Positions 2,128 to 34,602 of a stretch of 34,957 bases of DNA are shown here, piece by piece (the stretch's first letter is position 1; each line of letters begins with the position of its first letter). Below the pieces are notes generated by a model. It worked only from the letters and a program-made list of their open reading frames with translations. It was not told where the DNA came from and did no database searches. The stretch lies in assembly GCA_029233965.1 (NCBI GenBank), contig JARGOP010000048.1, forward strand, positions 1-34,957. Reading direction: 5' to 3'. The DNA comes from Verrucomicrobiales bacterium (lineage in GTDB: Bacteria; Verrucomicrobiota; Verrucomicrobiia; Verrucomicrobiales; DEV007). The translations under genes were made by a program, and so were the position numbers.

Positions 2128-2883
2128 TCAGGTCTTCACTGTTTTAATCCCGAAAATTTCAACCGTCACGCCCGGTGAGAAAGCTGAGTGAACGGGCGCA
2201 TCCCGGCCGACATCGAACCCCGCCTGCTTTACAGCCACGGGGTCAAAAGAAGTGACGGCGGCCTCGTGCACCGGATAGGGAGTGTGGTGGACCTGCCCGG
2301 ATAGAAGAATTTCCCGCTTGCGGTCATACGCAAAGAGAAGGTAGCGCTCGAGCAGGAAATACTCGAGCGAAGCTGGCCGCGGTTTCCTGACGGGGTTGCC
2401 GCCGCCATAGCTGAACCTGGAGACCTCATCCGGAGCGCCTCGCCGCCGGCACTCGTATTGAATCATCTCCGCTTCGCGCGATGCAACCATGTCAGCGCGA
2501 AAGTAGGGAAGATGGAAGAATCGCTTCGCGAGCTCAACGGCGAGTGACTGATTGGCATCCAGAGAGTAAAACCAGACGCCGGGATTACCGTGCCTGTCGT
2601 GAACGTAGGTCCTGACATTCATCTCCAGAAAGTTCGAGATACCCGGAACCGTGGGAAGAAAGCGCGGGCGGATGTCACACATGTAGAAGGGCACCAGTCC
2701 CACAAAGCACCTGCCCTCATGCAGGTCGACGGTGAGACCTTCGGGGAGCGTAGACTGGACTGTTTCCGGTGCGACCTCCCAGTGGAGGAAGAGAAGGTCT
2801 TTCCACTTCTGATACATCACCACCGGATCCGTTGGACGACGGCAGACGCGTTGCCGGTCGTCGAGGGTGGGTGATTTTATCAT
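2128..2883 (-). CDS. DUF2071 (YqjF-like) protein
   Basis: A 251-residue soluble protein. It shows the hallmarks of the DUF2071/YqjF family: an N-terminal W-x-x-L-L-F-L-H-W-E segment near residue 30, followed by L-P-E-G-L-T-V-D, then V-x-x-x-P-F and N-x-R-T-Y-V near residues 60-95, and a W-F-Y-S-L-D-A strand near 105. Members have a fold related to acetoacetate decarboxylase, but no reaction is assigned. It lies 9 bp downstream of the AraC-family gene and 4 bp upstream of the TIGR02206-like gene, so it is probably in the same operon and under that regulator. No signal peptide or membrane helix is seen. Confidence 0.85.
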   Translation of the reverse strand: MIKSPTLDDRQRVCRRPTDPVVMYQKWKDLLFLHWEVAPETVQSTLPEGLTVDLHEGRCFVGLVPFYMCDIRPRFLPTVPGISNFLEMNVRTYVHDRHGNPGVWFYSLDANQSLAVELAKRFFHLPYFRADMVASREAEMIQYECRRRGAPDEVSRFSYGGGNPVRKPRPASLEYFLLERYLLFAYDRKREILLSGQVHHTPYPVHEAAVTSFDPVAVKQAGFDVGRDAPVHSAFSPGVTVEIFGIKTVKT

Positions 2884-2892
2884 TTCAGATCG

Positions 2893-3717
2893 TCAATAGA
2901 GTTGTCCTTTACGATACGCCGCGGGAGAGATGCCGCGATGCTGTTTCAACATTCGGGAGAAGTAGTAACGATTCGGGAAGCCGCAATTTTCGGCGACCTG
3001 CTCGATCGATTGATCGGTATGGCGCAAGAGGTGACAGGCACGGTCGAGACGATAGTTCAGGAGCACGCTCATCGGTGCCATGCGGACCTGGGAGCGGAAG
3101 AGGTGATTCAGATTGCGGACGCTCACACCGGCGGAGCGGGCGGCATCGTCGGCGCTGATCTTGCGGGCAAGATTCGACTGGAGAAACTCCATGGCGCGCT
3201 CGACGCGTGAATCAAGTTTCTGGTCCGTCCACGCCGCATTCGGGAGTTTGGTCAGGGCATGAATGACGAGGCTCGCAGACTCCCAGTTGTAGGGCTCGCC
3301 TTTTGCGGTGGCGAGCGTGTCGATGAATCCTGAGGAAATGTCATCGACGTTCTGAGAATAGACACCGGGAACAGAAAGCAGGTCGGAGCGTCCGAGAATG
3401 AAGTGAACATACCACTTCGAAAACGGCTCAGGATTGTTCGAGCTGAATGAGGTGCGGGGAGGAATGAGGTAGAGCTTGCCGGGAACGAGTTCGGTTTCGG
3501 TGCCCTGGAATTCGACCACGGCTTTGCCTTCGACCGGGCAGTAGAGCCGCCAGTAGGGATCGAAAAGCCCCTTCAAATTCCAGCGCTGAAGCCGGATCTT
3601 CCGAGTCGCCAGAATCTCGAGTGACATGCCCGGAAGCATGACCTCTCTTTCGCCCTCCACCTCGTGGGGGGACCCGTCCGGGACCAGACTGAAAAACGAT
3701 TCCTTATTTGTGCTCAT
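2893..3717 (-). CDS. AraC-family transcriptional regulator
   Basis: About 274 residues. An N-terminal cupin-like sensor domain (residues about 25-120, including P-G-K-L-Y-L-I-P-P) precedes the C-terminal double helix-turn-helix (about 170-274). The second HTH carries the family signature CGFPNRYYFSRMLKQHRGIS. The reading frame stays open to 3885, but that would overlap the end of the PBP1A gene by 65 bp and has no family support. The ATG at 3717 starts a plausible protein and I use it. It sits at the head of a set with the DUF2071 and TIGR02206-like genes, so local regulation of these is likely; the effector is unknown. An 8-bp inverted repeat flanks the start region (see 3720-3774). Confidence 0.9.
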   Translation of the reverse strand: MSTNKESFFSLVPDGSPHEVEGEREVMLPGMSLEILATRKIRLQRWNLKGLFDPYWRLYCPVEGKAVVEFQGTETELVPGKLYLIPPRTSFSSNNPEPFSKWYVHFILGRSDLLSVPGVYSQNVDDISSGFIDTLATAKGEPYNWESASLVIHALTKLPNAAWTDQKLDSRVERAMEFLQSNLARKISADDAARSAGVSVRNLNHLFRSQVRMAPMSVLLNYRLDRACHLLRHTDQSIEQVAENCGFPNRYYFSRMLKQHRGISPAAYRKGQLY

Positions 3718-3719
3718 TT

Positions 3720-3774
3720 CCGCAATTGGCCGAAAATGACACACTGTATCGGAATGTCGAGACCTTAATTGCGG
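3720..3774. promoter_or_regulatory. Inverted repeat upstream of the AraC-family gene
   Basis: The 8-base arm CCGCAATT (3720-3727) is matched exactly by AATTGCGG (3767-3774), with 39 bases between the arms. The pair occupies the short space between the regulator start codon and the end of PBP1A, where the promoter of the regulator must lie. Such spaced half-sites could be an operator for autoregulation, or a long-range hairpin in the leader. This is seen in sequence; the function is inferred only. Confidence 0.35.
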
Positions 3775-3820
3775 TGGTTTCGCGGGATCCTTGTCATCCA
3801 GAGGTACAAAAAATGTATAC

Positions 3821-6085
3821 CTATCGTTGAGGGTCGCCGCCGAAAAGAAATCGGCCGATTCCCCGGAACGCCTTTCCAATCCCACTCTCCTCGGGAGGCG
3901 GTCTCATCTCCGGAGGAAGCTGTGCTCCAGCTTCACCGGGGACCGGAAATGCTTGAGGTAAGCCGCGGTTGTTGGTGAAAAGGCCGCCGCCATGCCCGCG
4001 GCAGGTTCCCCGGGGACGCATGTCAGGAGGAAGGAGCATTTGATACGGGTTGCGGGTGCGATTGCTCTGCAGGAGTCCGCACTCGCGGCAGAGCACGGTG
4101 TTGGTGGTTCCTTCGGGCGCGGGAATCCTCGCGGCGGGATAGTCTTTTTCGGCGCTCTTCATGACCTCGGTCCAGACGGGAAGGGCGAGAGTGCTTCCGT
4201 ATCCGCGATCCATGATTTTGGCGGGCTGATCGAGGCCGACCCACACACCGGTCGTGATTTTGTCAGTGTATCCCACGAACCACGCGTCGCGGTAGTCGTT
4301 CGTGGTGCCGGTTTTTCCTTTCGCGGGAGCGGTGTAACCCAGGCTTCGAGCGCTGCGCCCGGTTCCTTCATCCATCACTTTGGCGAGCATGTCGGAGGTC
4401 ACCCACGAGATCGACTCCGGAAAAATCGCGACTCCCGCAGGCTTTTCTTCGTAAAGAACGCGGCCATCGCGGTGCTCGATACGATCAATGAGGAAAGGAG
4501 TGTAGTTCACGCCTTTTGCACCGAGGGTCGAGAAGGCGCTCGTCAACGTGAAGGGAGTGGTGTCAAAGGCTCCGAGAAAAATGACGGGCGAATCCGGGAT
4601 CTCACCGAATTTCATGGAATAGGCCATGTTTCTCACATTCTGAAGTCCGGCAATCTGCCCGACACGCACCGACATCGTGTTCCGCGAGCGAATCAGTCCT
4701 ATCGCAGCGGGCTGGAGTCCGGTGAAGGTCCCGTCACTGTTTTGCGGAGACCAAACGGGCCCGCCTCCATGAGTGATGCGAATTGGATCGTCGCTGACAT
4801 ACACACCGGGGAGCATGCCGACACGGCGCATTGCTTCTGCGTAAATGAAGGGTTTGAAGGTGGATCCCGCCTGTCGGCGGGCTTTGTAGGCACGATTGAA
4901 AGAGCTGTCTCCAAACTTGCGGCCTCCGACGAGTGCCCGGATTGCTCCCGATGAATTGTCTAGGGTGACGACAGCGCCCTGAAGATATTTCGTGGTCTCA
5001 CCTTTCTTGTGCGCGGCGCGTTTGGGATGGCGGTAGCCCGGGCCGTTTTCGATCTTGGTGAGGTGGGAATCGAGGGCCTGCTCTGCGGTGGCCTGAAGAT
5101 TTGAATCCAGCGTGGTATAAACACGGAGACCGCCGAATTTGACTTCCTCTTCGCTCTCGAGATAGCGGGCGAGAAGATCAAAGATGGTCTGGAGAACATA
5201 GCTTCCCGTTGCGAGACGCTTGTCGGGTGGCCTGAGAGTGATTACTTCTGCTTTTGCTGCATTCGATTGTTCTTCTGTCAGGGTCCCGTCGGCAACCATG
5301 CGGGCGAGGACTTCGTCGCGGGTGTCTTCGGCGTTTTCGATGCTGCAGAAGGGGTTGAGGAGGCTGGGGCCGCGGATGATTCCCGCCAGCATCGCACCTT
5401 CCCCGGCGCTCAGTTCCGACGCGGGCTTCATGAAAAATCCCTGTGAGGCCCGTTCGATTCCGTAGAGGCCCGAACCGAAATAGATCCGGTTCATGTAAAA
5501 GCCGAGGATTTCGTCCTTTTCGAAATTGCGCTCGATCCGTTTCGCGATGGCGACCTCGAGGAGTTTTCGATTGAGCGTTTTCTCCCGCATTTCGAAGGCA
5601 TTGCGTGCGAGCTGCATCGTGAGGGTGGAGGCGCCCTGCTCCATGCCCCCGGATTTGAGGTTCGTGATCGCGGCACGGACGACGCCCCGATAGTCGACTC
5701 CGCGGTGCTCGTAAAAGCGACTGTCTTCGCGGGCTAGCAGCGCCTTGATGAAATGAGCAGAGACTTCGGACGCAGGAACGACGAGACGGTTTTCCCCGTG
5801 CCCGGAAACGTGCCCGAGCAATTCGCCTTCGCGATCATAGACGAGGGTTCGCTCCGGCACTTCGTCGAGTTTGTCGAGGTCGAAGGTGAGAGCCTTCGCG
5901 CCGTAGTAGACGCTGCCACCGATGTAGGTGATCGCGGCGAGGGCGATACCGAAGACAGAAAGTGAAAAGAGTCTGCGAAAGCAGCCGCCACGGCGCTTTC
6001 GTGATCTTTTTCCCGTGCCGCGCTCGTCGTGAAAGAGCGAGGCGAACGGGCCGGGGGACTGGGGTGAAGATTTCTTCCGACTCAT
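3821..6085 (-). CDS. Class A penicillin-binding protein (PBP1A type)
   Basis: A bifunctional peptidoglycan synthase of 754 residues. A basic N-terminus and one membrane anchor (about 40-62) are followed by a glycosyltransferase family 51 domain with catalytic Glu120 in EDSRF, then QGASTLTMQL and the RKLLEVAIA block. The transpeptidase domain has the three classic motifs: S408-T-F-K411, S467-R-N469 and K591-T-G593. After the transpeptidase come a periplasmic CxxC (666/669) and another cysteine at 695, then a Pro/Gly-rich tail. It builds glycan strands and cross-links them on the outer face of the inner membrane. I chose the first ATG because the basic cytoplasmic leader is normal for the family. 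A TACAAT hexamer lies 8 bases before the start; no convincing -35 was found. Confidence 0.95.
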   Translation of the reverse strand: MSRKKSSPQSPGPFASLFHDERGTGKRSRKRRGGCFRRLFSLSVFGIALAAITYIGGSVYYGAKALTFDLDKLDEVPERTLVYDREGELLGHVSGHGENRLVVPASEVSAHFIKALLAREDSRFYEHRGVDYRGVVRAAITNLKSGGMEQGASTLTMQLARNAFEMREKTLNRKLLEVAIAKRIERNFEKDEILGFYMNRIYFGSGLYGIERASQGFFMKPASELSAGEGAMLAGIIRGPSLLNPFCSIENAEDTRDEVLARMVADGTLTEEQSNAAKAEVITLRPPDKRLATGSYVLQTIFDLLARYLESEEEVKFGGLRVYTTLDSNLQATAEQALDSHLTKIENGPGYRHPKRAAHKKGETTKYLQGAVVTLDNSSGAIRALVGGRKFGDSSFNRAYKARRQAGSTFKPFIYAEAMRRVGMLPGVYVSDDPIRITHGGGPVWSPQNSDGTFTGLQPAAIGLIRSRNTMSVRVGQIAGLQNVRNMAYSMKFGEIPDSPVIFLGAFDTTPFTLTSAFSTLGAKGVNYTPFLIDRIEHRDGRVLYEEKPAGVAIFPESISWVTSDMLAKVMDEGTGRSARSLGYTAPAKGKTGTTNDYRDAWFVGYTDKITTGVWVGLDQPAKIMDRGYGSTLALPVWTEVMKSAEKDYPAARIPAPEGTTNTVLCRECGLLQSNRTRNPYQMLLPPDMRPRGTCRGHGGGLFTNNRGLPQAFPVPGEAGAQLPPEMRPPPEESGIGKAFRGIGRFLFGGDPQR

Positions 6086-7328: not shown

Positions 7329-8891
7329 ATGAGGTTTTTTGTCTTCTTTACCGCCCTCTTTATCTGCCTGTTCTCAGTTCAAGCAGGAGAGCGTCCTAAC
7401 ATCGTCATCATGATGGTCGACGATCTCGGGTTCTCTGATTTTGGCTGCTATGGAAGCGAGATCGAAACGCCGCATATTGACGCGCTCGCAGAGAATGGCC
7501 TGAGATTCAGCCGCTTCTACAACACCGCAAAGTGTCATTCCTCCCGGGTCTCGCTGCTCTCCGGCCTCTATTGCGATCAGGCTGGGAGCGAGAGTCTGAA
7601 GCGCGCTGCGACGATTCCGGAAGTGCTGAAAAAGGCGGGTTACTCCACGGCGATGGTCGGGAAGTGGCACCTTGATCGTGAACCGACTGAGCGGGGATTC
7701 GAGAAATACTTTGGACACTTGTCAGGAGCGACGAATTTTTTCACCGGCGACAATACCTTCCGGCTCAACGGGGAGCCGTGGAACGACTTCGATGAAAACT
7801 TCTACACGACGGAAGTGTTCATCGACTACGCCGGGCAGTTTATCGGCGAGGCACTGGAGGAGTCTCCGGAGAAGCCTTTCTTTCTCTACATCGCCCACAA
7901 TGCGCCGCATTATCCGCTGCACGTCCTCGAGGAGGATTATCGGAAATACGAAAACCGCTATTCAGAGGGGTGGGATGTGATTCGTGAGCGCCGCTACCGG
8001 AAGCAGCTGGAGATGGGACTGATCCCGGAAGCGTGGGCGCTGAGTCCACGCCCTGAACTTGTCCCGGACTGGGAGGAAATGAGCGAAGAGGATCGGAAAT
8101 GGGACGAGCGGCGCATGGCTGCTTTTGCGGGGATGGTGGACCGCGTCGACCAGACGACGGGACGGCTCATCGGGTTTCTGAAAGCGAGAGGCGTCTACGA
8201 AAATACGCTCATTATGATTTGCTCTGACAATGGTGCCTGTCCCTTCGATCGAACCACCGGTGCGGAATTCGAGCCCTGGGATGCACGATCCTACTGGTGC
8301 TATGACACGGGTTGGTCTCATGTTGGCAACACTCCTTTCCGTCTCCACAAGCAGAACCAGCATGAGGGCGGGATCTCCTCTCCGATGATTGCCCACTGGC
8401 CTGCGGGAATCAAAGCGGAGTCAGGTTCGATCACGGATCAGCCGGCTCACCTGATCGATTTCATGGCAACCTGCCTGGAACTGGGTAATGCTGAGTATCC
8501 TGATGCACTGACTCTCGCGGACGGGACGGAAATTGAGGTCGATCCTCTTCGGGGAAAATCTCTCGTCCCCGTTTTCGCGGGGCAGGAAAGGGAAGCGCAC
8601 GAATTCCTCTACTTTAAATTCAGCGACAATCGTGCGATTCGAAAAGGCCCCTGGAAGCTCGTGACGCATCGGGCCAGTCAGTGGGAACTCTATGATATCG
8701 AGAAGGACGGGACCGAGTTGAACGATCTGGCCAGTGAGCATCCGGAGATTGTCGAAGAACTGTCCGCCTTGTGGCGTGAGACTGCGGTGAAGGTGGATCG
8801 CACTTCGACAAAGAAAGCAAGACCGGTGAGCGGCAAGACGCCTCCCCGCCTCATGAAAGACGGACGGCCCGAAAAGTCGAAAGGGGAATGA
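7329..8891 (+). CDS. Secreted arylsulfatase-family enzyme
   Basis: A formylglycine-dependent sulfatase of 520 residues with a signal peptide (cleavage near residue 19-20). The metal-binding DD (31-32) is present. The maturation motif C69-H-S-S-R73 followed by VSLLSG marks Cys69 as the residue to be oxidised to formylglycine by a sulfatase-modifying enzyme encoded elsewhere. GKWHL and the CSDNGA metal site follow. It removes sulfate from a sulfated carbohydrate or aryl ester in the periplasm or outside; the substrate cannot be read from sequence. The gene immediately downstream encodes another secreted protein and is probably co-transcribed. High numbers of sulfatases are typical of marine Verrucomicrobiota and Planctomycetota. 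Confidence 0.93.
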   Translation: MRFFVFFTALFICLFSVQAGERPNIVIMMVDDLGFSDFGCYGSEIETPHIDALAENGLRFSRFYNTAKCHSSRVSLLSGLYCDQAGSESLKRAATIPEVLKKAGYSTAMVGKWHLDREPTERGFEKYFGHLSGATNFFTGDNTFRLNGEPWNDFDENFYTTEVFIDYAGQFIGEALEESPEKPFFLYIAHNAPHYPLHVLEEDYRKYENRYSEGWDVIRERRYRKQLEMGLIPEAWALSPRPELVPDWEEMSEEDRKWDERRMAAFAGMVDRVDQTTGRLIGFLKARGVYENTLIMICSDNGACPFDRTTGAEFEPWDARSYWCYDTGWSHVGNTPFRLHKQNQHEGGISSPMIAHWPAGIKAESGSITDQPAHLIDFMATCLELGNAEYPDALTLADGTEIEVDPLRGKSLVPVFAGQEREAHEFLYFKFSDNRAIRKGPWKLVTHRASQWELYDIEKDGTELNDLASEHPEIVEELSALWRETAVKVDRTSTKKARPVSGKTPPRLMKDGRPEKSKGE

Positions 8892-8909
8892 TCCGTGGAG
8901 ACCCCGCAG

Positions 8910-9872
8910 ATGAAAGTCAGCGCCTTCTTCTTGGTCTCTGTGTTGGCCGCCTCTGCCTCTGCTGAACCGGACCGGACCCCGAACATCGGTCCGCGAGAGA
9001 AAAGGGACTTTCTTTTCGCAGAAAACGAAGTGGTCAGGGTCGGCATTGATCGCGAGATGGGGGCATCGCTCACGCATCTCTCCTGGGCCGGCTACCGGAA
9101 AAACACGGTGAACATTCATGACCCCGGTCGGCTCATTCAACAATCCTACTACGCCGGGCATCCTCTTGATCGCACGGCTGAGGGCCAAAGCCCGTCCTGG
9201 GTGCCATGGGCCTGGAACCCGATCCAGGGTGGTGGCGTCGGTTCCTGGGCGCGGGTCACCGTGTTTGAGAAAAAAGACGACGGGAATCTCTACGCCGAGA
9301 CGATTCCCAAGCTCTGGGACATGCCCGACGAAGAAGCCGCCGCCACGATGCGCCAATGGACGGGATTTGAGCCGGACATCCCGAATGCAGTCGTGGTGCA
9401 GTGCGAACTGGAATGCCGCCGCGAAGAGGGAGACCGCTGGGGACCTGCGGTTCCGCGACACCAGGAATTGCCGGCCCTGTATTTCACCCGCAATTTTTCA
9501 ATCTTTCGAAGCTATCTCGGCCGGGGCGAGTGGAGGGAAGAAGCTCACTCGATGGGACCGCCCTGGGGAAGATCCGAGCCGCCTCTCAAGGTCATGGCCT
9601 GCTTCAACCCACAGGGACAGGGGGTCGCAGTCTTCAGCCCAACCGCGACGGAGCACTGGAATTTCGGCCCGCACGGCCGGGGAAACAGTTCGGAGGCGAT
9701 GGACGCTTCCTGTGTCCATCTTGCGCCGATCGGCAAGGTGAAGCTCGGCCCGAAGTCGACCCTGCGGTATCGCTACTGGATCGTGGTGGGAGCGGAAGAC
9801 GAAATCGTCGCGGCGGTTGATGAGCTGATTGCCAGGTACAGGGAGGAAGAGTTCACGCTGACGAATCCGTGA
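8910..9872 (+). CDS. Secreted protein of unknown function next to the sulfatase
   Basis: About 320 residues with a clear signal peptide (MKVSAFFLVSVLAASASA). A GTG at 8895 in the same frame would add five residues, and both starts have a purine-rich stretch upstream; the ATG gives the more usual signal peptide. After the signal comes V-V-R-V-G-I-D-R-E-M-G-A-S-L, then I-H-D-P-G-R-L-I-Q-Q-S-Y-Y. This kind of opening is seen in proteins with a galactose-mutarotase-like beta-sandwich. It is tryptophan-rich, as sugar-binding proteins often are. It starts about 20 bp after the sulfatase stop, so a shared role on a sulfated glycan is likely. I cannot name a family with confidence. Confidence 0.72.
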   Translation: MKVSAFFLVSVLAASASAEPDRTPNIGPREKRDFLFAENEVVRVGIDREMGASLTHLSWAGYRKNTVNIHDPGRLIQQSYYAGHPLDRTAEGQSPSWVPWAWNPIQGGGVGSWARVTVFEKKDDGNLYAETIPKLWDMPDEEAAATMRQWTGFEPDIPNAVVVQCELECRREEGDRWGPAVPRHQELPALYFTRNFSIFRSYLGRGEWREEAHSMGPPWGRSEPPLKVMACFNPQGQGVAVFSPTATEHWNFGPHGRGNSSEAMDASCVHLAPIGKVKLGPKSTLRYRYWIVVGAEDEIVAAVDELIARYREEEFTLTNP

Positions 9873-26643: not shown

Positions 26644-29283
26644 TCAGCTACTTTCCTTTTTTGCGGCCGCCTTCTTCCCGGGCGCAGCTTTCTTCGCAGC
26701 CGTTTTCTTCTTCGCCGGTTCGCGGGGCGGGAACTCCCAACCAAGCATGCGCTTGCCTTTCGTGTTGCAGGTCAATGCAGCTTTGAAAGGACGGCCCTTC
26801 TTACTGATCCACTGTTCGATGACATCCGTTTTTCCCTCGGTGAAATACTTGAGAGCCTGCTCGCGCGGGATTTCGTATTTACACATCTCCTTCGAGAGGC
26901 GGGCTTTGCAGCCATCACCGCTGGCACGGCGATCACAAAGGTAGCTGTGAGGAGTGACGTAGATATCACCTTTCTCACAGAGCGGACATTTGCAAAGCTT
27001 GTTCTCCGCTTTGATTGCTTCGGCTTCCTCCTCCTCTTCGGGGGACTTCTCAAAAACAAAGGATGCCTTCAGGCCCGTCTTCTTGTCCTCCTGCAATTCG
27101 ATCGCGGCATCAAAGGGCTGCTTGAAGCGATTCACGAAGCCGGTGAGCGGCCCTACCAGTTTCGTGGTGAGAAGGGTTTTTGCCTCTTCCTCGGAAAGCG
27201 GGCGGCTCGCAATCACTTTCGGAAGAGCGAATTTACATTCCGGCTGCTTACATTTGTAGCGTCCGTCATCCTGACCCAGGGCAGAGGCTCCACAGACCGG
27301 GCATGCCACCGGGAACTCCGGCCATTCCCGCTCCAGAGCGGTCCGGGCATACTCTTTGGCCGTCTCGACGACCGTGCCGGTGAGCTCCTTGATCTCGTTC
27401 ATGAAGCTGGGGCGTTCCATTTTGCCCTGCTCCATTTGCTTCAGCTTGTATTCCCATTCGCCGGTCATTTCCGGAGAGGTGAGAATGCCGATCCTCATGT
27501 TGTTGAGCTGCTCGATGAGCCGCATTCCGCGAGTCGTCACGTAAATATCACGGCCATCACGGGTGATGTATTTGTCATTGATCAAACCCTCGATTGTCGA
27601 GGCCCGGGTCGCGGGGGTGCCGAGTCCACGCTCGGACATGGCGTCGCGCAGTTCTTCATCGTCGACGCGTTTGCCCGCAGTCTCCATCGCGGAGAGAAGC
27701 GTGCTCTCGTTGTATCGTGCGGGCGGGCGCGTCTGCTTATCGAGGCGCTCGACCTTCTTTGCTTCGGCACTTTCACCGGGAGCGACCGGAACGATCTCTT
27801 TGTCGGCACTGGCGGAGGATTTTTTGACCCGGCCCTCTTCGCCGTCATCGACAGGGGCGGGCGGGGGTGCGCCGACTTTTTTGCCGTAGACCGCAAGCCA
27901 GCCGGCTTCGACGAGGATTTTGCCGTCGGTCTTGAAGGCGTCTTCACCGATCCGGCTGATGCGGGTCGTGATCTCGAACTCGGCCTGCGGATAGAAGGTC
28001 GCAATGAAGCGACGGCTCACCATGTCGTAGAGCTTCTGCTCGGCCTCGTCGAGGTTAGCCGGGATCTGTCCGGTCGGAATGATTGCAAAGTGGTCACTGA
28101 CTTTGGCGCCGTTAAAGACACGCTTGTCCCTGCCGTTGACCCATGACTTCTCAATCACCTTGGCGGCGTGCCCGGGCATGTCGCCTATGGTGTAGCCTGA
28201 GGCTCCCGAAATCTTCTTCAGCGTTTCGATCGTTGTGGGAACGTAGTCGTCAGGCAGGTAGCGGGAGTCGGTTCGTGGATAAGTCAGCGCTTTGTGGCGC
28301 TCGTAGAGAGACTGCGCCAGCTGGAGGGTGCGGCGGGCGGAGAATCCGAAGCGTCCGTTCGCCTCGCGCTGAAGGCTCGTGAGATCGTAGAGCTGCGGCG
28401 AAATCTGCCTGGTTGGCTTTTTCTTTTCCTCAACCGCGGCTGTTTTCCCCTGACAGCGATCCACGATTGCCTGTGCCGTCGCTTGATCCCAGATCCGCTC
28501 GGCGCGGGCATGCGGCTTGTCCTCCACCTTTTTGTAGGTCTCGCTGAACCAGCGGCCGAGGTAGTCACCGGCCTTCACGCCGAAGGTAGCGTGAACCTCG
28601 AAGTAGTCTTCGCTGACGAACTGGTCGATTTCAGATTCGCGCTCGGCAAGGAGGGCCAGAGTCGGAGTCTGGACGCGACCGACGGGAGTCTTGTTGAACC
28701 CGCCGAACTTGCTGTTGAAGGCCGTCATTGCCCGGGTCGAGTTGATCCCGATGAGCCAGTCGGACTCCGAACGGCAGTAGGCCGCGTCGGAAAGAGGGCG
28801 CATCTCCTCGTCGCTGCGGAGGTTGCTGAAGGCCTCCTTGATTGCTCCATCGGTCATGGACTGCATCCAGAGTCGGCGGGTCGGCTTATCAATTCCGGCG
28901 AACTGAACGATGTAGCGGAAAATGAGTTCCCCTTCGCGGCCGGCATCACAGGCATTGATGAGTTCGGTCACATCCTTGCGCTTCATGAGGCGCTTGAGGA
29001 CATTGAGGCGGGACTTCGATCCCTTTTGCTCACTGGGTTCGAGCGCGAACTGATCGGGGACCACAGGGAGACAGTCAAACTTCCAGGGGAGGGTTTTTCC
29101 CTCGGCGGTCATGGGCAGAGCCTGTTGCACGAGGTGGCCGACGGCAGAGGAAATGATGTATCGATCGTTCTCGAAAAAATCCTCCTTCTTGTCGAATTTC
29201 CCGATCGCGGGGTCTTTTCCGAGAACCCGGGCGAGGTCGTTGGCGACACTCGGTTTCTCGGCGATGATTAGTGATTTCGACAT
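26644..29283 (-). CDS. topB: DNA topoisomerase III with Cys-rich C-terminus and Lys/Ala tail
   Basis: A type IA topoisomerase of 879 residues, much longer than E. coli TopB. The TOPRIM domain has I-A-E-K-P-S (with Glu9) and D113-A-G-R-E-G-E. The active-site Tyr335 lies in T-Y-P-R-T-D-S. After the core come two zinc-binding clusters: C-P-V-C with a later C-x-C and C, and C-P-L-C followed by two further Cys. A histone-like tail rich in Lys and Ala closes the protein (last 25 residues). It relaxes and decatenates DNA. It lies 72 bp downstream of dprA on the same strand and is probably co-transcribed. Confidence 0.95.
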   Translation of the reverse strand: MSKSLIIAEKPSVANDLARVLGKDPAIGKFDKKEDFFENDRYIISSAVGHLVQQALPMTAEGKTLPWKFDCLPVVPDQFALEPSEQKGSKSRLNVLKRLMKRKDVTELINACDAGREGELIFRYIVQFAGIDKPTRRLWMQSMTDGAIKEAFSNLRSDEEMRPLSDAAYCRSESDWLIGINSTRAMTAFNSKFGGFNKTPVGRVQTPTLALLAERESEIDQFVSEDYFEVHATFGVKAGDYLGRWFSETYKKVEDKPHARAERIWDQATAQAIVDRCQGKTAAVEEKKKPTRQISPQLYDLTSLQREANGRFGFSARRTLQLAQSLYERHKALTYPRTDSRYLPDDYVPTTIETLKKISGASGYTIGDMPGHAAKVIEKSWVNGRDKRVFNGAKVSDHFAIIPTGQIPANLDEAEQKLYDMVSRRFIATFYPQAEFEITTRISRIGEDAFKTDGKILVEAGWLAVYGKKVGAPPPAPVDDGEEGRVKKSSASADKEIVPVAPGESAEAKKVERLDKQTRPPARYNESTLLSAMETAGKRVDDEELRDAMSERGLGTPATRASTIEGLINDKYITRDGRDIYVTTRGMRLIEQLNNMRIGILTSPEMTGEWEYKLKQMEQGKMERPSFMNEIKELTGTVVETAKEYARTALEREWPEFPVACPVCGASALGQDDGRYKCKQPECKFALPKVIASRPLSEEEAKTLLTTKLVGPLTGFVNRFKQPFDAAIELQEDKKTGLKASFVFEKSPEEEEEAEAIKAENKLCKCPLCEKGDIYVTPHSYLCDRRASGDGCKARLSKEMCKYEIPREQALKYFTEGKTDVIEQWISKKGRPFKAALTCNTKGKRMLGWEFPPREPAKKKTAAKKAAPGKKAAAKKESS

Positions 29284-29355: not shown

Positions 29356-30471
29356 TCAAATCAGTTTCGTGAAGTATTTGCCCGGAAGCTGTTTAATCAG
29401 ACTCTTCATTTCGAGCTGGAGCAGGGTCGCGCTGACCACTCCGGCGGGAAGTGCGTGCGCCTCGGAAAGCGCATCAATCGTCGACTCTCCGGACTCCAAT
29501 GCGTCGAGTATGGTTCGCTCGTTTTCGTTCAATTCGGGAATCGGCCGGGCGATCCGGGCAGGGGCGACCGGAGGATCGAAATCGAGGGCGAGTGAGTTGA
29601 TTCCTGCGCCGAGATCATCGACGATGTCCTGCGCTGTGCAGACCAGGGTTGCTCCCGAGCGGATCAGCCGGTTGCAGCCTTCGGAAGTCGGGCGGTCGAT
29701 CGGTCCGGGTACGGCAAAGACGGTTCGTCCCTGTTCGAGCGCCTGGTTTGCGGTGATCATCGATCCGCTGCGCGCCGGTGCCTCGACGACGAGGAGTCCC
29801 TGTGACATTCCGGAAACAATTCGGTTCCGGAGGGGAAAGGATTGTTTGTCAGGAACGTAGAGGACGGGGAATTCCGAGATTACCGCCCCGTTTTCCGCAA
29901 TCCTGTCGGCGAGCGCCTGATTTTCGGGCGGGTAGACATTTCCGATCCCGGAACCGAGGACCGCGACAGTTCGGCCTTCGGCAGCAAGCGCCGCTTCGTG
30001 AGCCGCCGTGTCGATTCCTCTCGCAAGTCCGCTCACAATGCAGAAACCGGTGCGCGCGAGCTGAAAACTGAGCTTTCTGGCCTGTTCCCGGCCGTAGTGC
30101 GTCATGCGACGGGAGCCGACGACGCCAATCGCTGCCGAATCCGAAGGTCGGAGCTCGCCCTTTATATAAAGCAGGAAAGGAGGATCGTGGATTTCGCGGA
30201 GCGCCGGAGGGTATTCGTCGTCGTCCAGTGTGATCGCTCTGATCCCGTGCTTTTCCATGCGGCGCTGTTCCTCAGGCAGGTCGATGTGGCGTTCCCACTG
30301 GTGAATCTGCTCTGCCATCTCCCGCCCGATCCCGGGGACCTCCTGGAGATCCTGTGCCGATGCCGAGAGAATGCGATCCGGTTCCTGAAAATACTCCAGC
30401 ATCCGCCGAACCCGGATCGGCCCGATGCGGGGGAGTAAATTCAGCGCGAGAAATGCATCCTTCGAGTTCAT
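29356..30471 (-). CDS. dprA: DNA processing protein DprA
   Basis: A 371-residue protein that binds incoming single-stranded DNA and loads RecA during transformation. The helix-hairpin-helix-like start (L-P-R-I-G-P-I-R-V and V-P-G-I-G-R-E) precedes the Rossmann core, which has V-G-S-R-R-M-T-H-Y-G, S-G-L-A-R-G-I-D-T-A-A-H and L-G-S-G-I-G-N-V-Y-P. A winged-helix-like C-terminal domain follows. Natural competence is suggested but not shown, as no other com genes are in view. No ribosome binding site precedes the ATG (see 30481-30509). Confidence 0.95.
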   Translation of the reverse strand: MNSKDAFLALNLLPRIGPIRVRRMLEYFQEPDRILSASAQDLQEVPGIGREMAEQIHQWERHIDLPEEQRRMEKHGIRAITLDDDEYPPALREIHDPPFLLYIKGELRPSDSAAIGVVGSRRMTHYGREQARKLSFQLARTGFCIVSGLARGIDTAAHEAALAAEGRTVAVLGSGIGNVYPPENQALADRIAENGAVISEFPVLYVPDKQSFPLRNRIVSGMSQGLLVVEAPARSGSMITANQALEQGRTVFAVPGPIDRPTSEGCNRLIRSGATLVCTAQDIVDDLGAGINSLALDFDPPVAPARIARPIPELNENERTILDALESGESTIDALSEAHALPAGVVSATLLQLEMKSLIKQLPGKYFTKLI

Positions 30472-30617: not shown

Positions 30618-31784
30618 ATGGGAGAGAAATGGACACTCGAATCAGCCGCTGAGAAGAAAGCACCGGGTCTGCATCCGCTGGCCGGGTCCCGCTTGCGCGT
30701 CTTTCTGCAGCATTTTTTGTTCACCCCGGGATTTGATCCGCGGACTCGCTACCAGCGATTCATCGCCTGCGTGGCCCAGGTTGTCCGCTTCCCGCTTGCG
30801 CTGATTGAAAAGGTGAAATATGCGGGTGCCATCAACCGGCAGACGATGAAAACGCCGCCGATTTTTCTGATCGGGCACTGGAGGAGTGGCACGACCCATC
30901 TTCATAATCTCATGAGCCGGGATCCCCAGTTCGGGTATCTCAAGTTTACGGAAACGGCGCTCCCGCTCGATATGCTGGGGCCCAAGGTGCACATCATGCG
31001 CCGCATCATTGACCGGGCGCTCCCGGATGATCGCGGGTTCGACAAGGTCAAGCTCACGCTCGACGAACCGCAGGAGGAGGAGATGGCGCTTGGAAATCTG
31101 AATCCGATCGGCTATTACAGCATCTACTATTTTCCACAGGAGATGGCAAAACTGCGCGACGTGTCTCTCTTTTTCGAGGGATGCCCGGATTCAGCTGTGA
31201 AGCGTTTCAAAAAGAACTACTCGTTTCTCGTGAGGAAGCTCAACTACGCGAAACAGGGGCGTCAGTTGCTGTTTAAGAATCCGCCGTCAACGACCCGGAT
31301 GAAGATGATTCTCGAAATGTATCCGGATGCTCGATTTGTTCACATCGTTCGGAATCCCTGGGAAGTCTATTGCTCGACGAGGAGCCATTTTCCCCGCGTC
31401 TTCAATGCATTCGCGTGGCAGTCGTTTCAGAATGTCGATATTCCAGGCTACACTCTGGAAACCTACGAAAAGCTGATGCGACGCTATCTTGCCGATCGTG
31501 ACGAACTCAAGTTGCCGTCGAACCAGCTGGTCGAGACCACCTACGAAGCGATCACCGAAGACCCTCTGGGTGAAATCGGTCGGATCTACGATGAACTCGG
31601 ACTCGGCGGCAAAAAGGAGGGACTCTCCGAAATCAGTTCGTATCTCGACGGCCTGAAGGATTACCAGCGCAACGTTCACTACGTCAGTGAAGAGGAAGCG
31701 AAGGAAATTCGGGAGCGCTGGAAGTTTTCCTTCGATGCCTGGAACTACGAGACCGGGCCGCCTGAGGCGATTCAGGTCCGCTAA
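30618..31784 (+). CDS. Sulfotransferase-family protein
   Basis: A 388-residue protein that probably transfers sulfate from PAPS to a hydroxyl or amine. The 5'-phosphosulfate loop I-G-H-W-R-S-G-T-T-H-L-H-N (85-97) is clear. The 3'-phosphate motif V-R-N-P-W-E-V-Y-C-S-T-R-S (about 239-251) keeps the Arg and Ser. There is no obvious signal peptide. The stop and the start of lpxB overlap by one base (TAATG), so translation may be coupled. The substrate is unknown. It lies next to a lipid A gene, so an envelope glycolipid is a natural guess. Confidence 0.9.
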   Translation: MGEKWTLESAAEKKAPGLHPLAGSRLRVFLQHFLFTPGFDPRTRYQRFIACVAQVVRFPLALIEKVKYAGAINRQTMKTPPIFLIGHWRSGTTHLHNLMSRDPQFGYLKFTETALPLDMLGPKVHIMRRIIDRALPDDRGFDKVKLTLDEPQEEEMALGNLNPIGYYSIYYFPQEMAKLRDVSLFFEGCPDSAVKRFKKNYSFLVRKLNYAKQGRQLLFKNPPSTTRMKMILEMYPDARFVHIVRNPWEVYCSTRSHFPRVFNAFAWQSFQNVDIPGYTLETYEKLMRRYLADRDELKLPSNQLVETTYEAITEDPLGEIGRIYDELGLGGKKEGLSEISSYLDGLKDYQRNVHYVSEEEAKEIRERWKFSFDAWNYETGPPEAIQVR

Positions 31785-32938
31785 TGAAAACCTGTCACGC
31801 CAAGCAGTCTTTGAAATCTCTCGTCGTCATTGCCGGTGAAATCAGTGGAGACACTCACGGAGCCGAACTTCTCAGGGCGCTTCCGGGGACAGACGGGTGG
31901 AGTGTTTCCGGGCTCGGTGGGCCGAAGATGGCCGAATGGACCGGCACGATCGAAAACTGGCTCGACGAAGCGGCGGTCCTCGGTCTCCTGGAGGTTCTGA
32001 AGAAATACGGTTACTTCCGCGAAAAGATGGAGGAGACCGTCGCTCACATTCACGAAGTGAAGCCGGATGGTGTCCTCTTCATTGACTACCCGGGATTTAA
32101 TCTCCGTCTCGCAAAACGGCTCCGGGAGGAGGGCTACAAGGGGAAGCTGATTTACTACATCAGCCCTCAGGTATGGGCCTGGAAAAAGGGGCGTATCAAG
32201 GTCATGGCCAGACTTCTGGATCTCATGATCTGCATTTTCCCTTTCGAGAAACAGCTCTACGAAAAGAGTGGCCTCCCGACGGAGTTCGCGGGGCATCCTT
32301 TGATCGACGAAATGGCAGAGGTTCGCGATGAGGGGATCGTGAGAGATTCAAATCTCGTCGCGATGCTTCCCGGTTCGAGGGAGCGTGAAATCGCGAAGCT
32401 GTTTCCTCCGATGCTGGAGGCTGCCGCCGAACTGCTCGAGTCCCACCCCTCATTGATGTTTGCGACGACCGGGGCAACTCGGACTCTCACGGAGCGTCTC
32501 AGGGAGATGGTTGCTGCGGCCGGCCTTTCCGATGCGTTTTCCGTAGGTGAGTCAACGAGTCACCACATCATGCAGCAAGCCGGGGTCGGAGTGGTCGCGT
32601 CGGGCACGGCGACGCTCGAAGCAGCCTGCCTCGGGCTGCCCTATTGTCTGACCTACAAGGTGGCCTGGCTCACCGCGCAGGTCGCCAGACGCGTGATGTC
32701 GGTCGACTACCTCGGGATTGTCAATGTCATGGCGGATCGGGAAGTCGTGAAGGAACTGCTGCAAAACGATGCAAACGGGGCGGCAATTGCGGCCGAGTTG
32801 AACCGGCTTCTGGAAGATACCGCGGCCCGTGAAGCGATCAGGCGCGAGATCGCCGAAGTCGTGGCGATGCTGGGGGGCGGGGGAGCGCACGAAAAGGCTG
32901 CTCAATCAGTAGCAGCTGCATTGGAGGTCACAGCGTAA
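31784..32938 (+). CDS. lpxB: Lipid-A-disaccharide synthase
   Basis: Joins UDP-diacylglucosamine and lipid X to form the disaccharide of lipid A at the inner membrane. It is 384 residues long. The family motifs G-E-I-S-G-D-T-H-G (18-26), I-S-P-Q-V-W-A-W-K-K-G-R near 125 and S-G-T-A-T-L-E-A-A-C near 270 are intact, and the C-terminal A-D-R-E-V-V-K-E-L-L-Q is conserved. The start overlaps the sulfotransferase stop by one base. It shows that the organism makes lipid A. Confidence 0.95.
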   Translation: MKTCHAKQSLKSLVVIAGEISGDTHGAELLRALPGTDGWSVSGLGGPKMAEWTGTIENWLDEAAVLGLLEVLKKYGYFREKMEETVAHIHEVKPDGVLFIDYPGFNLRLAKRLREEGYKGKLIYYISPQVWAWKKGRIKVMARLLDLMICIFPFEKQLYEKSGLPTEFAGHPLIDEMAEVRDEGIVRDSNLVAMLPGSREREIAKLFPPMLEAAAELLESHPSLMFATTGATRTLTERLREMVAAAGLSDAFSVGESTSHHIMQQAGVGVVASGTATLEAACLGLPYCLTYKVAWLTAQVARRVMSVDYLGIVNVMADREVVKELLQNDANGAAIAAELNRLLEDTAAREAIRREIAEVVAMLGGGGAHEKAAQSVAAALEVTA

Positions 32939-32947
32939 TTCACGACG

Positions 32948-33985
32948 ATGAAAGAAGGTGCTTTGATTCGATTTTTGATTGTTGCTCTGCCGACCGGCTT
33001 GCTGTTCCTCGGCGTCGCGGCGATGCTGAAGACGCATCTCTCGACTCCTGAAATACCGATCGACCCCAACGAAGAATCCCGTCTCGACGCGGCTGCCCTG
33101 AACCGGAAACCGGTGAACCGCGTGGATATCGAACGCTACCTGACCACGTTGACCGAACAGATCGGAGAACGTCACGTTGGCAAACCGGAAAATCTCGAAA
33201 AGGCCGCCGTCTGGATCGAGTCCTCTCTCGGGGGCGGGAATATCGGTTACCCGGTCGAGCGACATGTTCACGATGCGGATGGAGTCGAAGTGCGGAATTT
33301 GATTGCGGAGCTTCCCGGGAAGTCACGCCGGGACGAAATCATCATTGTCGGAGCCCATTACGACACGATCCCGAACTGTCCGGGCGCCAATGACAACGGG
33401 ACGGGGATCGCCGCGCTCATGAGTCTGGCTCAGGCAATGGCGGGCGATCAGCAGGAACGGACAATCCGCTTCGTGGCCTTCGTGAATGAAGAGCCCCCGT
33501 ATTTTCAGACGGACCGCATGGGCAGCCGGGTCTACGCGGCCCGCAGTCGAAGCCGTCGCGAGAATATTGTCGCGATGATGGCGCTTGAAACGATCGGGTA
33601 TTTTTCCAAAGAGGAAAACAGCCAGAAGGTTCCCGAAGGCCTTGAGGAATCTTTCCCGACGACGGGAGACTTTCTCGCCTTCGTCGGCAACGAGCACTCA
33701 CGCTATTTTGCCGATTCCGCGCGTGCCGCGTTTGAGAGAGCGAGTGGAATCCCTGCGATCGGAGGCGCTTTTCCCCCTGAAGTCCCCGGCGTGGGATGGT
33801 CCGATCACTGGTCGTTTTGGCAGGAAGGCTACAAAGCGATCATGGTGACTGACACCGCGCCCTACCGGTATCCTCACTATCACAAATCCACTGACACGAT
33901 CGATAAACTCGATCTGGAGATGCTGGTGAAGGTGATCGAGGGACTGGAGGAGGTCGTCAAAACCTGGGCGAATCCGGGGGAGTAA
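32948..33985 (+). CDS. Membrane-anchored M28-family zinc peptidase
   Basis: A 345-residue protein with one N-terminal membrane segment (about 8-27), so the catalytic part is extracytoplasmic. Zinc-binding residues are present: His137 in G-A-H-Y-D, Asp149 in A-N-D-N-G, Glu181/Glu182 in V-N-E-E-P, Glu214, and a C-terminal histidine in H-Y-H-K-S-T-D. It is probably an aminopeptidase or related amidohydrolase acting in the periplasm. It starts 9 bp after lpxB and is likely in the same transcript. The substrate is not known. Confidence 0.92.
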   Translation: MKEGALIRFLIVALPTGLLFLGVAAMLKTHLSTPEIPIDPNEESRLDAAALNRKPVNRVDIERYLTTLTEQIGERHVGKPENLEKAAVWIESSLGGGNIGYPVERHVHDADGVEVRNLIAELPGKSRRDEIIIVGAHYDTIPNCPGANDNGTGIAALMSLAQAMAGDQQERTIRFVAFVNEEPPYFQTDRMGSRVYAARSRSRRENIVAMMALETIGYFSKEENSQKVPEGLEESFPTTGDFLAFVGNEHSRYFADSARAAFERASGIPAIGGAFPPEVPGVGWSDHWSFWQEGYKAIMVTDTAPYRYPHYHKSTDTIDKLDLEMLVKVIEGLEEVVKTWANPGE

Positions 33986-34052: not shown

Positions 34053-34424
34053 CTACAGCGCCGGAATCTGCCCCTGTGCTTCGCTCAGGAACCCGGCGAT
34101 CCCGTTTTCCTTGTCACAGAGAATGACTTTGGGATCGACCGGTTTTTCGGTGAGTTCAAAGCCCATGATGATGACTTTCTCGCCCGCGTTGATGAGATGA
34201 GCGGCGGCGCCATTGATCTCGATGGCACCGGATCCCCGCTCGCCTTCGATAACGTAGGTTTCCAGTCGCGCCCCGGTCGTCGCGCTGACGACGAGCACTT
34301 TCTCACCGATCCAGAGACCGACTGCATCGACGAGATTCCGGTCGATAGTGATGCTCCCGACATAGTCGACATTCGCCTCGGTGACCGTGGCCAGGTGGAT
34401 CTTGGATCTGAGCAGACTCCGCAT
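34053..34424 (-). CDS. panD: Aspartate 1-decarboxylase proenzyme
   Basis: Makes beta-alanine for pantothenate and CoA. It is 123 residues long. The self-cleavage site Gly23-Ser24 sits in Y-V-G-S-I-T-I-D, giving the pyruvoyl group after processing. N-G-A-A-A-H and V-I-I-M-G-F-E near the C-terminus are conserved. The open frame reaches 34466, but the ATG at 34424 gives the usual M-R-S-L-L-R-S-K-I-H start. Confidence 0.96.
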   Translation of the reverse strand: MRSLLRSKIHLATVTEANVDYVGSITIDRNLVDAVGLWIGEKVLVVSATTGARLETYVIEGERGSGAIEINGAAAHLINAGEKVIIMGFELTEKPVDPKVILCDKENGIAGFLSEAQGQIPAL

Positions 34425-34602
34425 GAGAAATGGGCGCAAGGTTTCGCAGAATTTCAGGAAATGCAAGGCATCACTCGGCTAATGAAATGAACAGGATTAC
34501 CAGTCGATGCCATTTCCATGACGACGGTGGGGTGATTGGAGGGGGATGAAAAGACAAAATGAGGGTTGAGCAATTGGCGGCGGCATTGAAACATACGGGC
34601 GA

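Follow-up and report, generated by a model that had tools for sequence, protein, structure and literature searches.

BT_0416 of Bacteroides thetaiotaomicron catalyzes the PAPS-dependent conversion of cholesterol to cholesterol sulfate (PMC9417993), LpsS of Sinorhizobium meliloti is a bacterial LPS-modifying sulfotransferase of the Stf0 family (PMC12445080), and in Mycobacterium tuberculosis sulfomenaquinone is formed by CYP128, which hydroxylates menaquinone, and Stf3, which sulfates it (PMC7404182). The sulfotransferase (ST) described here lies next to lpxB in a window (the whole stretch of DNA that was analysed) of 34,957 nt from a Verrucomicrobiales bacterium (GCA_029233965.1, contig JARGOP010000048.1; genome G000 in our sample). 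ST belongs to the Sulfotransfer_3 family, whereas LpsS, compared by its published description, is classed as an Stf0 enzyme. Stf3, likewise compared by its published description, differs in acting on menaquinone and in having no lpxB.

A sulfotransferase of Bacteroides finegoldii is 31.7% identical to ST over residues 47-377, and its genes are ordered SLC13 permease-cysC-cysD-cysN-ST. The published BT_0412 to BT_0416 layout fits this locus (PMC9417993), the likeness to BT_0416 being one of layout only; the neighbours there are genes of PAPS synthesis, whereas the neighbour of ST in the window is lpxB. Among the matches listed, literature titles on lpxB with sulfotransferase and on "sulfated lipid A" dealt with other subjects only, and no title named a route with LpxB2, a P450 and a sulfotransferase.

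At E 0.01 the only PDB sequence matches to ST were 2zq5, 2z6v and, in third place, 4gox. The AlphaFold model of ST (pLDDT 85.9) was structurally closest to M. avium Stf9 (2z6v, Z 26.4 over 339 residues) and mycobacterial Stf1 (2zq5, Z 23.0 over 299 residues), which have the same fold at 14% and 17% identity, respectively, and whose PDB molecule names do not state an acceptor. The sulfotransferase domains of olefin synthase and curacin (4gox, 4gbm) also share this fold, but are domains within polyketide synthases, where they add sulfate to a hydroxyl group of a polyketide chain that is lipid-like. An earlier note on this DNA had suggested a structural comparison with known lipid sulfotransferases. 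The closest folds were those of bacterial sulfotransferases, but the fold is also that of tyrosylprotein and heparan sulfotransferases, and therefore does not by itself set the acceptor.

The features of the locus are given in Table 1. ST matched only Sulfotransfer_3, Sulfotransfer_1 and Sulfotransfer_4 in a Pfam scan at E 0.001. From the sulfotransferase literature, we take residues G86-T93 to be the PSB loop, and R245 and S253 to be the 3'-phosphate site. Residues 136-151 of the model had a pLDDT below 50, and this segment ran into the DEPQEEEM motif. APS kinase (PF01583), the putative source of PAPS, was found in 30 of the 33 genomes of the genus, including G000, and in all 23 of the good ones; this common enzyme is no specific sign of sulfation and is present also in 11 of 14 control genomes. 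As for the lipid A pathway, LpxB was found in 30 of the 33 genus genomes and LpxK (PF02606) in 32, G000 among them. A sulfate standing in for the 4'-phosphate was thereby ruled out, since the 4'-kinase that it would have to replace is not missing.

Table 1. Features of the ST-lpxB locus, with positions in the window. Invariance refers to 24 aligned ST relatives, each at least 44% identical.
Feature	Position	Strand	Evidence
topB (DNA topoisomerase III), outer flank of conserved block	26644..29283	-	NF006032
dprA, divergent flank	29356..30471	-	PF02481, TIGR00732
Sulfotransferase (ST), Sulfotransfer_3 family, 388 aa	30618..31784	+	PF13469, 103.4 bits (cut-off 27), residues 81-329
PAPS 5'-phosphosulfate-binding loop IGHWRSGTT, residues 85-93	30870..30896	+	G86-T93 invariant (24/24), including R89-S90-G91-T92-T93
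DEPQEEEM motif, residues 149-156, candidate catalytic/acceptor segment by flexible loop (putative role)	31062..31085	+	invariant (24/24)
3'-phosphate-binding segment RNPWEVYCS, residues 245-253	31350..31376	+	R245 and S253 invariant (24/24)
lpxB, lipid-A-disaccharide synthase, 384 aa	31784..32938	+	TIGR00215 equivalog, 234.2 bits (cut-off 190.25); PF02684
M28-family peptidase, third gene of putative ST-lpxB-M28 unit	32948..33985	+	PF04389
panD (aspartate decarboxylase), downstream flank	34053..34466	-	PF02261

The earlier note had started from the observation that the stop codon of ST and the start codon of lpxB share one base. This holds literally at 31784, where the last A of the TAA stop doubles as the first base of an ATG, but the use of this ATG is doubtful. 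In an alignment of the junction from seven genomes it occurred in the window only: none of the six others had a start codon at this position, not even the one closest to the window (ST 91% identical). What is conserved is a start at codon 10 or close to it, which is TTG 31811 in the window and TTG (four), GTG (one) or ATG (one) in the other six. Since the ATG at 31784 is unique to the window and the codon-10 start is conserved, the one-base overlap is probably an annotation artefact due to a wrongly called start, and the true start of lpxB is likely to be TTG 31811, about 26 nt past the ST stop. Judged from ORF positions, the spacing among linked loci ranged from a possible 4-nt overlap (G145, G002 and G152) up to 613 nt (G132), so that tight coupling of ST and lpxB is possible in some relatives, though not general. 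No terminator-like site was found between ST and lpxB, a scan for sigma-70-type promoters gave no match, and no inverted repeats were detected in three junction stretches. The putatively secreted sulfatase that had been mentioned as present in the window and unlinked to the pair was confirmed as a sulfatase gene (PF00884, 7329-8891, about 22 kb away); the region 7329-9872 holds this gene followed by a 325-aa ORF that had no Pfam match at E 1e-5.

Conservation was counted in a sample of 141 genomes of the order, with ST relatives taken at E <= 1e-20. Where greedy ORF picking had mis-picked genes (e.g. lpxB of locus L148) and the positions differed, those from tblastn were used. ST relatives were present in 40 of these genomes and lpxB in 137, and the two genes were adjacent only in the genus of the window (none of the 19 ST-bearing genomes outside it). 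Within the genus, 22 of the 33 genomes had the pair, including G148, in which ST is partial at a contig end; seven had ST elsewhere only, one of which (G115) yielded no lpxB; and in four, with completeness of 52-77%, ST was not found. The linked genomes span LpxB identities of 53-100% to the window. This recurrence is more than chance, and the pair is not limited to the genome of the window, a limitation that would have counted against the earlier proposal.

The linkage is not specific to ST and lpxB, because the M28 peptidase and dprA, neighbours with no known role in lipid A synthesis, are likewise conserved. The block topB-dprA / ST-lpxB-M28 / panD was kept as a whole across the genus. The M28 gene follows lpxB in 21 linked loci out of 22. 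For dprA, 19 loci could be judged and three could not; the gene lies upstream in 15 of the 19 and was not found in G058, G002, G145 and G083, of which the last two extend no more than about 1 kb beyond ST on that side. Among 15 loci of the family that have no ST, lpxB was preceded by a Gfo/Idh gene in all 15, usually with lpxI (13/15), and followed by the M28 gene in seven, which indicates that M28 lay beside lpxB before ST did. Adjacency alone is therefore weak evidence for a common pathway, as block synteny explains part of the conservation.

The pairing might thus be no more than passive synteny in a slowly rearranging block, an explanation compatible with lipid A as well as with another lipid as the acceptor. 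Conservation of the whole block speaks for it, as does the same block without ST in four congeners (G068, G075, G081 and G086). On the other hand, G002 and G058 have lost dprA and kept the pair, and in G145 the pair is present with neither a dprA nor an M28 match beside it (only some 1 kb of sequence precedes ST there). The linkage seems to have outlived its flanks at least once (G145), yet ordinary synteny accounts for a large part of the conservation; as a full account of the pairing, passive synteny is considered rather unlikely. The suggestion that coupling reflects a shared pathway accordingly kept some of its force through the recurrence of the pair and its retention in G145, and lost some through the doubtful overlap and the likewise conserved neighbours.

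The lpxB tree was built from 43 of 45 rows, L116 and L148 having been dropped by the length filter. The linked state was spread across the genus in this tree, and loci without ST nested among the linked ones at two points, a pattern suggestive of an early gain of ST followed by at least two losses; many branches had only moderate support. G145 sat on a long branch apart from the main linked group, together with G151 and G023, and a single gain of ST is therefore not certain.

The ST tree contained 63 rows, the partial ST of G148 being left out. The 22 lpxB-linked rows, which represent 21 of the 22 linked genus genomes and L071, from a named relative outside the 33, formed one group together with two other rows (support 98/96). 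The two unlinked members (L081 and L083) are second copies in G089 and G152, located in clusters of polyketide synthase (PKS), desaturase and MMPL genes; both genomes also keep an lpxB-linked copy. The linked group is hence not confined to lipid A loci, and its acceptor need not be lipid A.

Gene contexts were labelled by ourselves, and many neighbours lack identification. By these labels, 24 of the 41 ST rows that are not beside lpxB1 adjoin lipid-type genes, namely PKS/NRPS, desaturase-family, MMPL, GT21-type glycosyltransferase, a fusion of fatty-acyl ligase with a BioF/serine-palmitoyltransferase-like domain, or P450/lpxB2. The remaining 17 have no recognised lipid-type neighbour; one of them sits with PAPS genes, and the Aureibacter relative, around which no lipid cluster was seen, also belongs here. 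Relatives in Azospirillum and Gloeothece have an acyltransferase/glycosyltransferase pair as neighbours and polyketide synthases in the vicinity. ST relatives occurred in 20 plasmid records, and in none of the four inspected was the gene beside lpxB. ST has its binding motifs intact in a genome with APS kinase, and numerous relatives adjoin polyketide/fatty-acyl or glycosyltransferase genes. It is predicted to be a cytosolic, PAPS-dependent Sulfotransfer_3 enzyme that likely acts on a lipid.

Several of these neighbourhoods were of interest in their own right. L083 and L183 combine genes of the PKS, fatty acid desaturase and MMPL transporter families with a sulfotransferase gene; a sulfated polyketide lipid may be synthesised and exported by these clusters. 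In L136 and L137 a serine-palmitoyltransferase/BioF-like domain (below the cut-offs of those models) is joined to a fatty-acyl-AMP ligase near PKS genes and a sulfotransferase gene, and their product may be a sulfated sphingoid-like lipid. A run of crtI-crtI-acyltransferase-GT2-sulfotransferase genes on an Azospirillum oryzae plasmid (L200, 2946-9074) is a candidate pathway to a sulfated glyco-carotenoid. In L107 a bacteriorhodopsin-like gene (PF01036) adjoins an ST paralogue (2608-3540 and 3738-4889).

The genome of the window contains a second lpxB (lpxB2), 29% identical to the first and scoring 262.3 bits with TIGR00215. It is followed by two Lip_A_acyltrans genes, a P450 gene and a PMT_2 gene (L194, contig C57, 104-6053). 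In G142 a run of lpxB2, two acyltransferase genes and a P450 gene converges on a second sulfotransferase gene, ST2 (L179, contig C1, 7349-13040). In G000, ST2 lies on a separate contig (L138, C132, 2821-4339), convergent with a 104-aa P450 end piece, and the physical link between lpxB2 and ST2 is therefore broken or unassembled in this genome. The gene set is a candidate pathway to a hydroxylated, sulfated LpxB-type glycolipid. That it forms a widespread system was unsupported: among 387 genomes of the phylum, from which G142, the genome of the query, is evidently absent, ST2 matched in two at E 1e-60 (G000, 45% identity; G315, 34%) and lpxB2 in one at E 1e-80 (G000). Contamination of the lpxB2 and ST2 contigs is possible, the assemblies being listed at 2.61% and 5%. 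This second module gives independent, modest support for a link between LpxB glycolipids and sulfation. A third lpxB of G142 (L180, contig C51, 6415-8505) lies directly after lpxI and may be contamination (assembly listed at 5%).

The explanation we favour, with a probability of roughly 0.4, is that the lpxB-linked ST sulfates a lipid A intermediate or its acyl chain; co-transcription, activity and acceptor are all inferred in this model. A single origin in the genus ancestor is probable for the lpxB-linked form, as is its transcription together with the lpxB and M28 peptidase genes. With PAPS supplied through APS kinase, ST would work on the cytoplasmic side of the inner membrane and pass the sulfo group to a hydroxyl that belongs either to a lipid A intermediate or to one of the acyl chains of lipid A, and the product would be an optional, more acidic outer-membrane glycolipid. 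A wider proposal is that the genus makes a sulfated lipid A or LpxB-derived glycolipid through the lpxB-operon enzyme and that the genome of the window has, in addition, an LpxB2 route (LpxB2, two LpxL-type acyltransferases and a P450) with hydroxylation of the glycolipid by the P450 and its sulfation by a second sulfotransferase, analogous to CYP128/Stf3; this is doubtful at present.

Lipid A is a plausible acceptor, placed slightly ahead of another membrane lipid. It is conceivable, at somewhat less than even odds, that ST sulfates a GT21-type glycolipid, a hydroxylated or polyketide-derived lipid or a quinone, and that the lpxB locus is a mere landing or expression site. The seven genus genomes with only an unlinked ST point in this direction, as their STs come from two other clades, one of them coupled to a GT21-type glycosyltransferase, and no member of either clade was seen in the 22 linked genomes, a pattern that resembles functional replacement of the lpxB-linked ST. 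In five of the seven (G068, G075, G081, G086 and G115) a GT21-type gene, whose similarity to HpnI is below the cut-off of the HpnI model, directly precedes the ST paralogue, and all 23 good genus genomes contain a GT21-type gene, so that a GT21 glycolipid has to be taken seriously as the acceptor. Further ST paralogues have PKS/NRPS, MMPL and desaturase-family genes as neighbours, and BT_0416 acts on cholesterol (PMC9417993). The apparent replacement, however, amounts to few independent events, and the pair was retained in G145. Moreover, G058, G061, G071 and G002 are linked and gave no MMPL or desaturase matches like those of the PKS clusters; the product of such clusters is therefore not a general acceptor, and the idea that ST serves a PKS/MMPL/desaturase cluster in trans was unsupported. 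In the genus as a whole, MMPL matches of at least 38% identity over most of the protein occurred in six of 33 genomes (any match at E 1e-20, 15/33), and desaturase-family matches in 11 of 33; the four linked genomes just named had neither kind at that threshold. A polysaccharide, a peptide or a small molecule in place of a lipid appears improbable as the acceptor. The fold common to tyrosylprotein and heparan sulfotransferases and the 17 rows that have no recognised lipid-type neighbour would fit such an acceptor, but many ST relatives and their neighbours indicate lipids, and no polysaccharide cluster was recognised among the neighbours identified by Pfam, many neighbours lacking identification.

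A GT21-type gene was located directly upstream of ST in L103, L104, L105, L108 and L101 (the last labelled "other" in the ST tree and counted here as GT21 since such a gene adjoins), and in L103, L104 and L108 the two ORFs as called overlap by 4 nt. These pairs, in genus members without an lpxB-linked ST, are a candidate sulfatide-like pathway.

If lipid A is sulfated in this genus, the fixed sulfate would give the outer membrane negative charge by a non-phosphate route, which would bear on the binding of divalent cations, resistance to antimicrobial peptides and the recognition of environmental Verrucomicrobiota. Even with another lipid as the acceptor, a sulfolipid made by an enzyme of the lpxB locus in most members of the genus would be new to us. 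Sulfated lipid A, or another sulfated membrane lipid, in these uncultured Verrucomicrobiales is an unproven possibility that can be tested by mass spectrometry.
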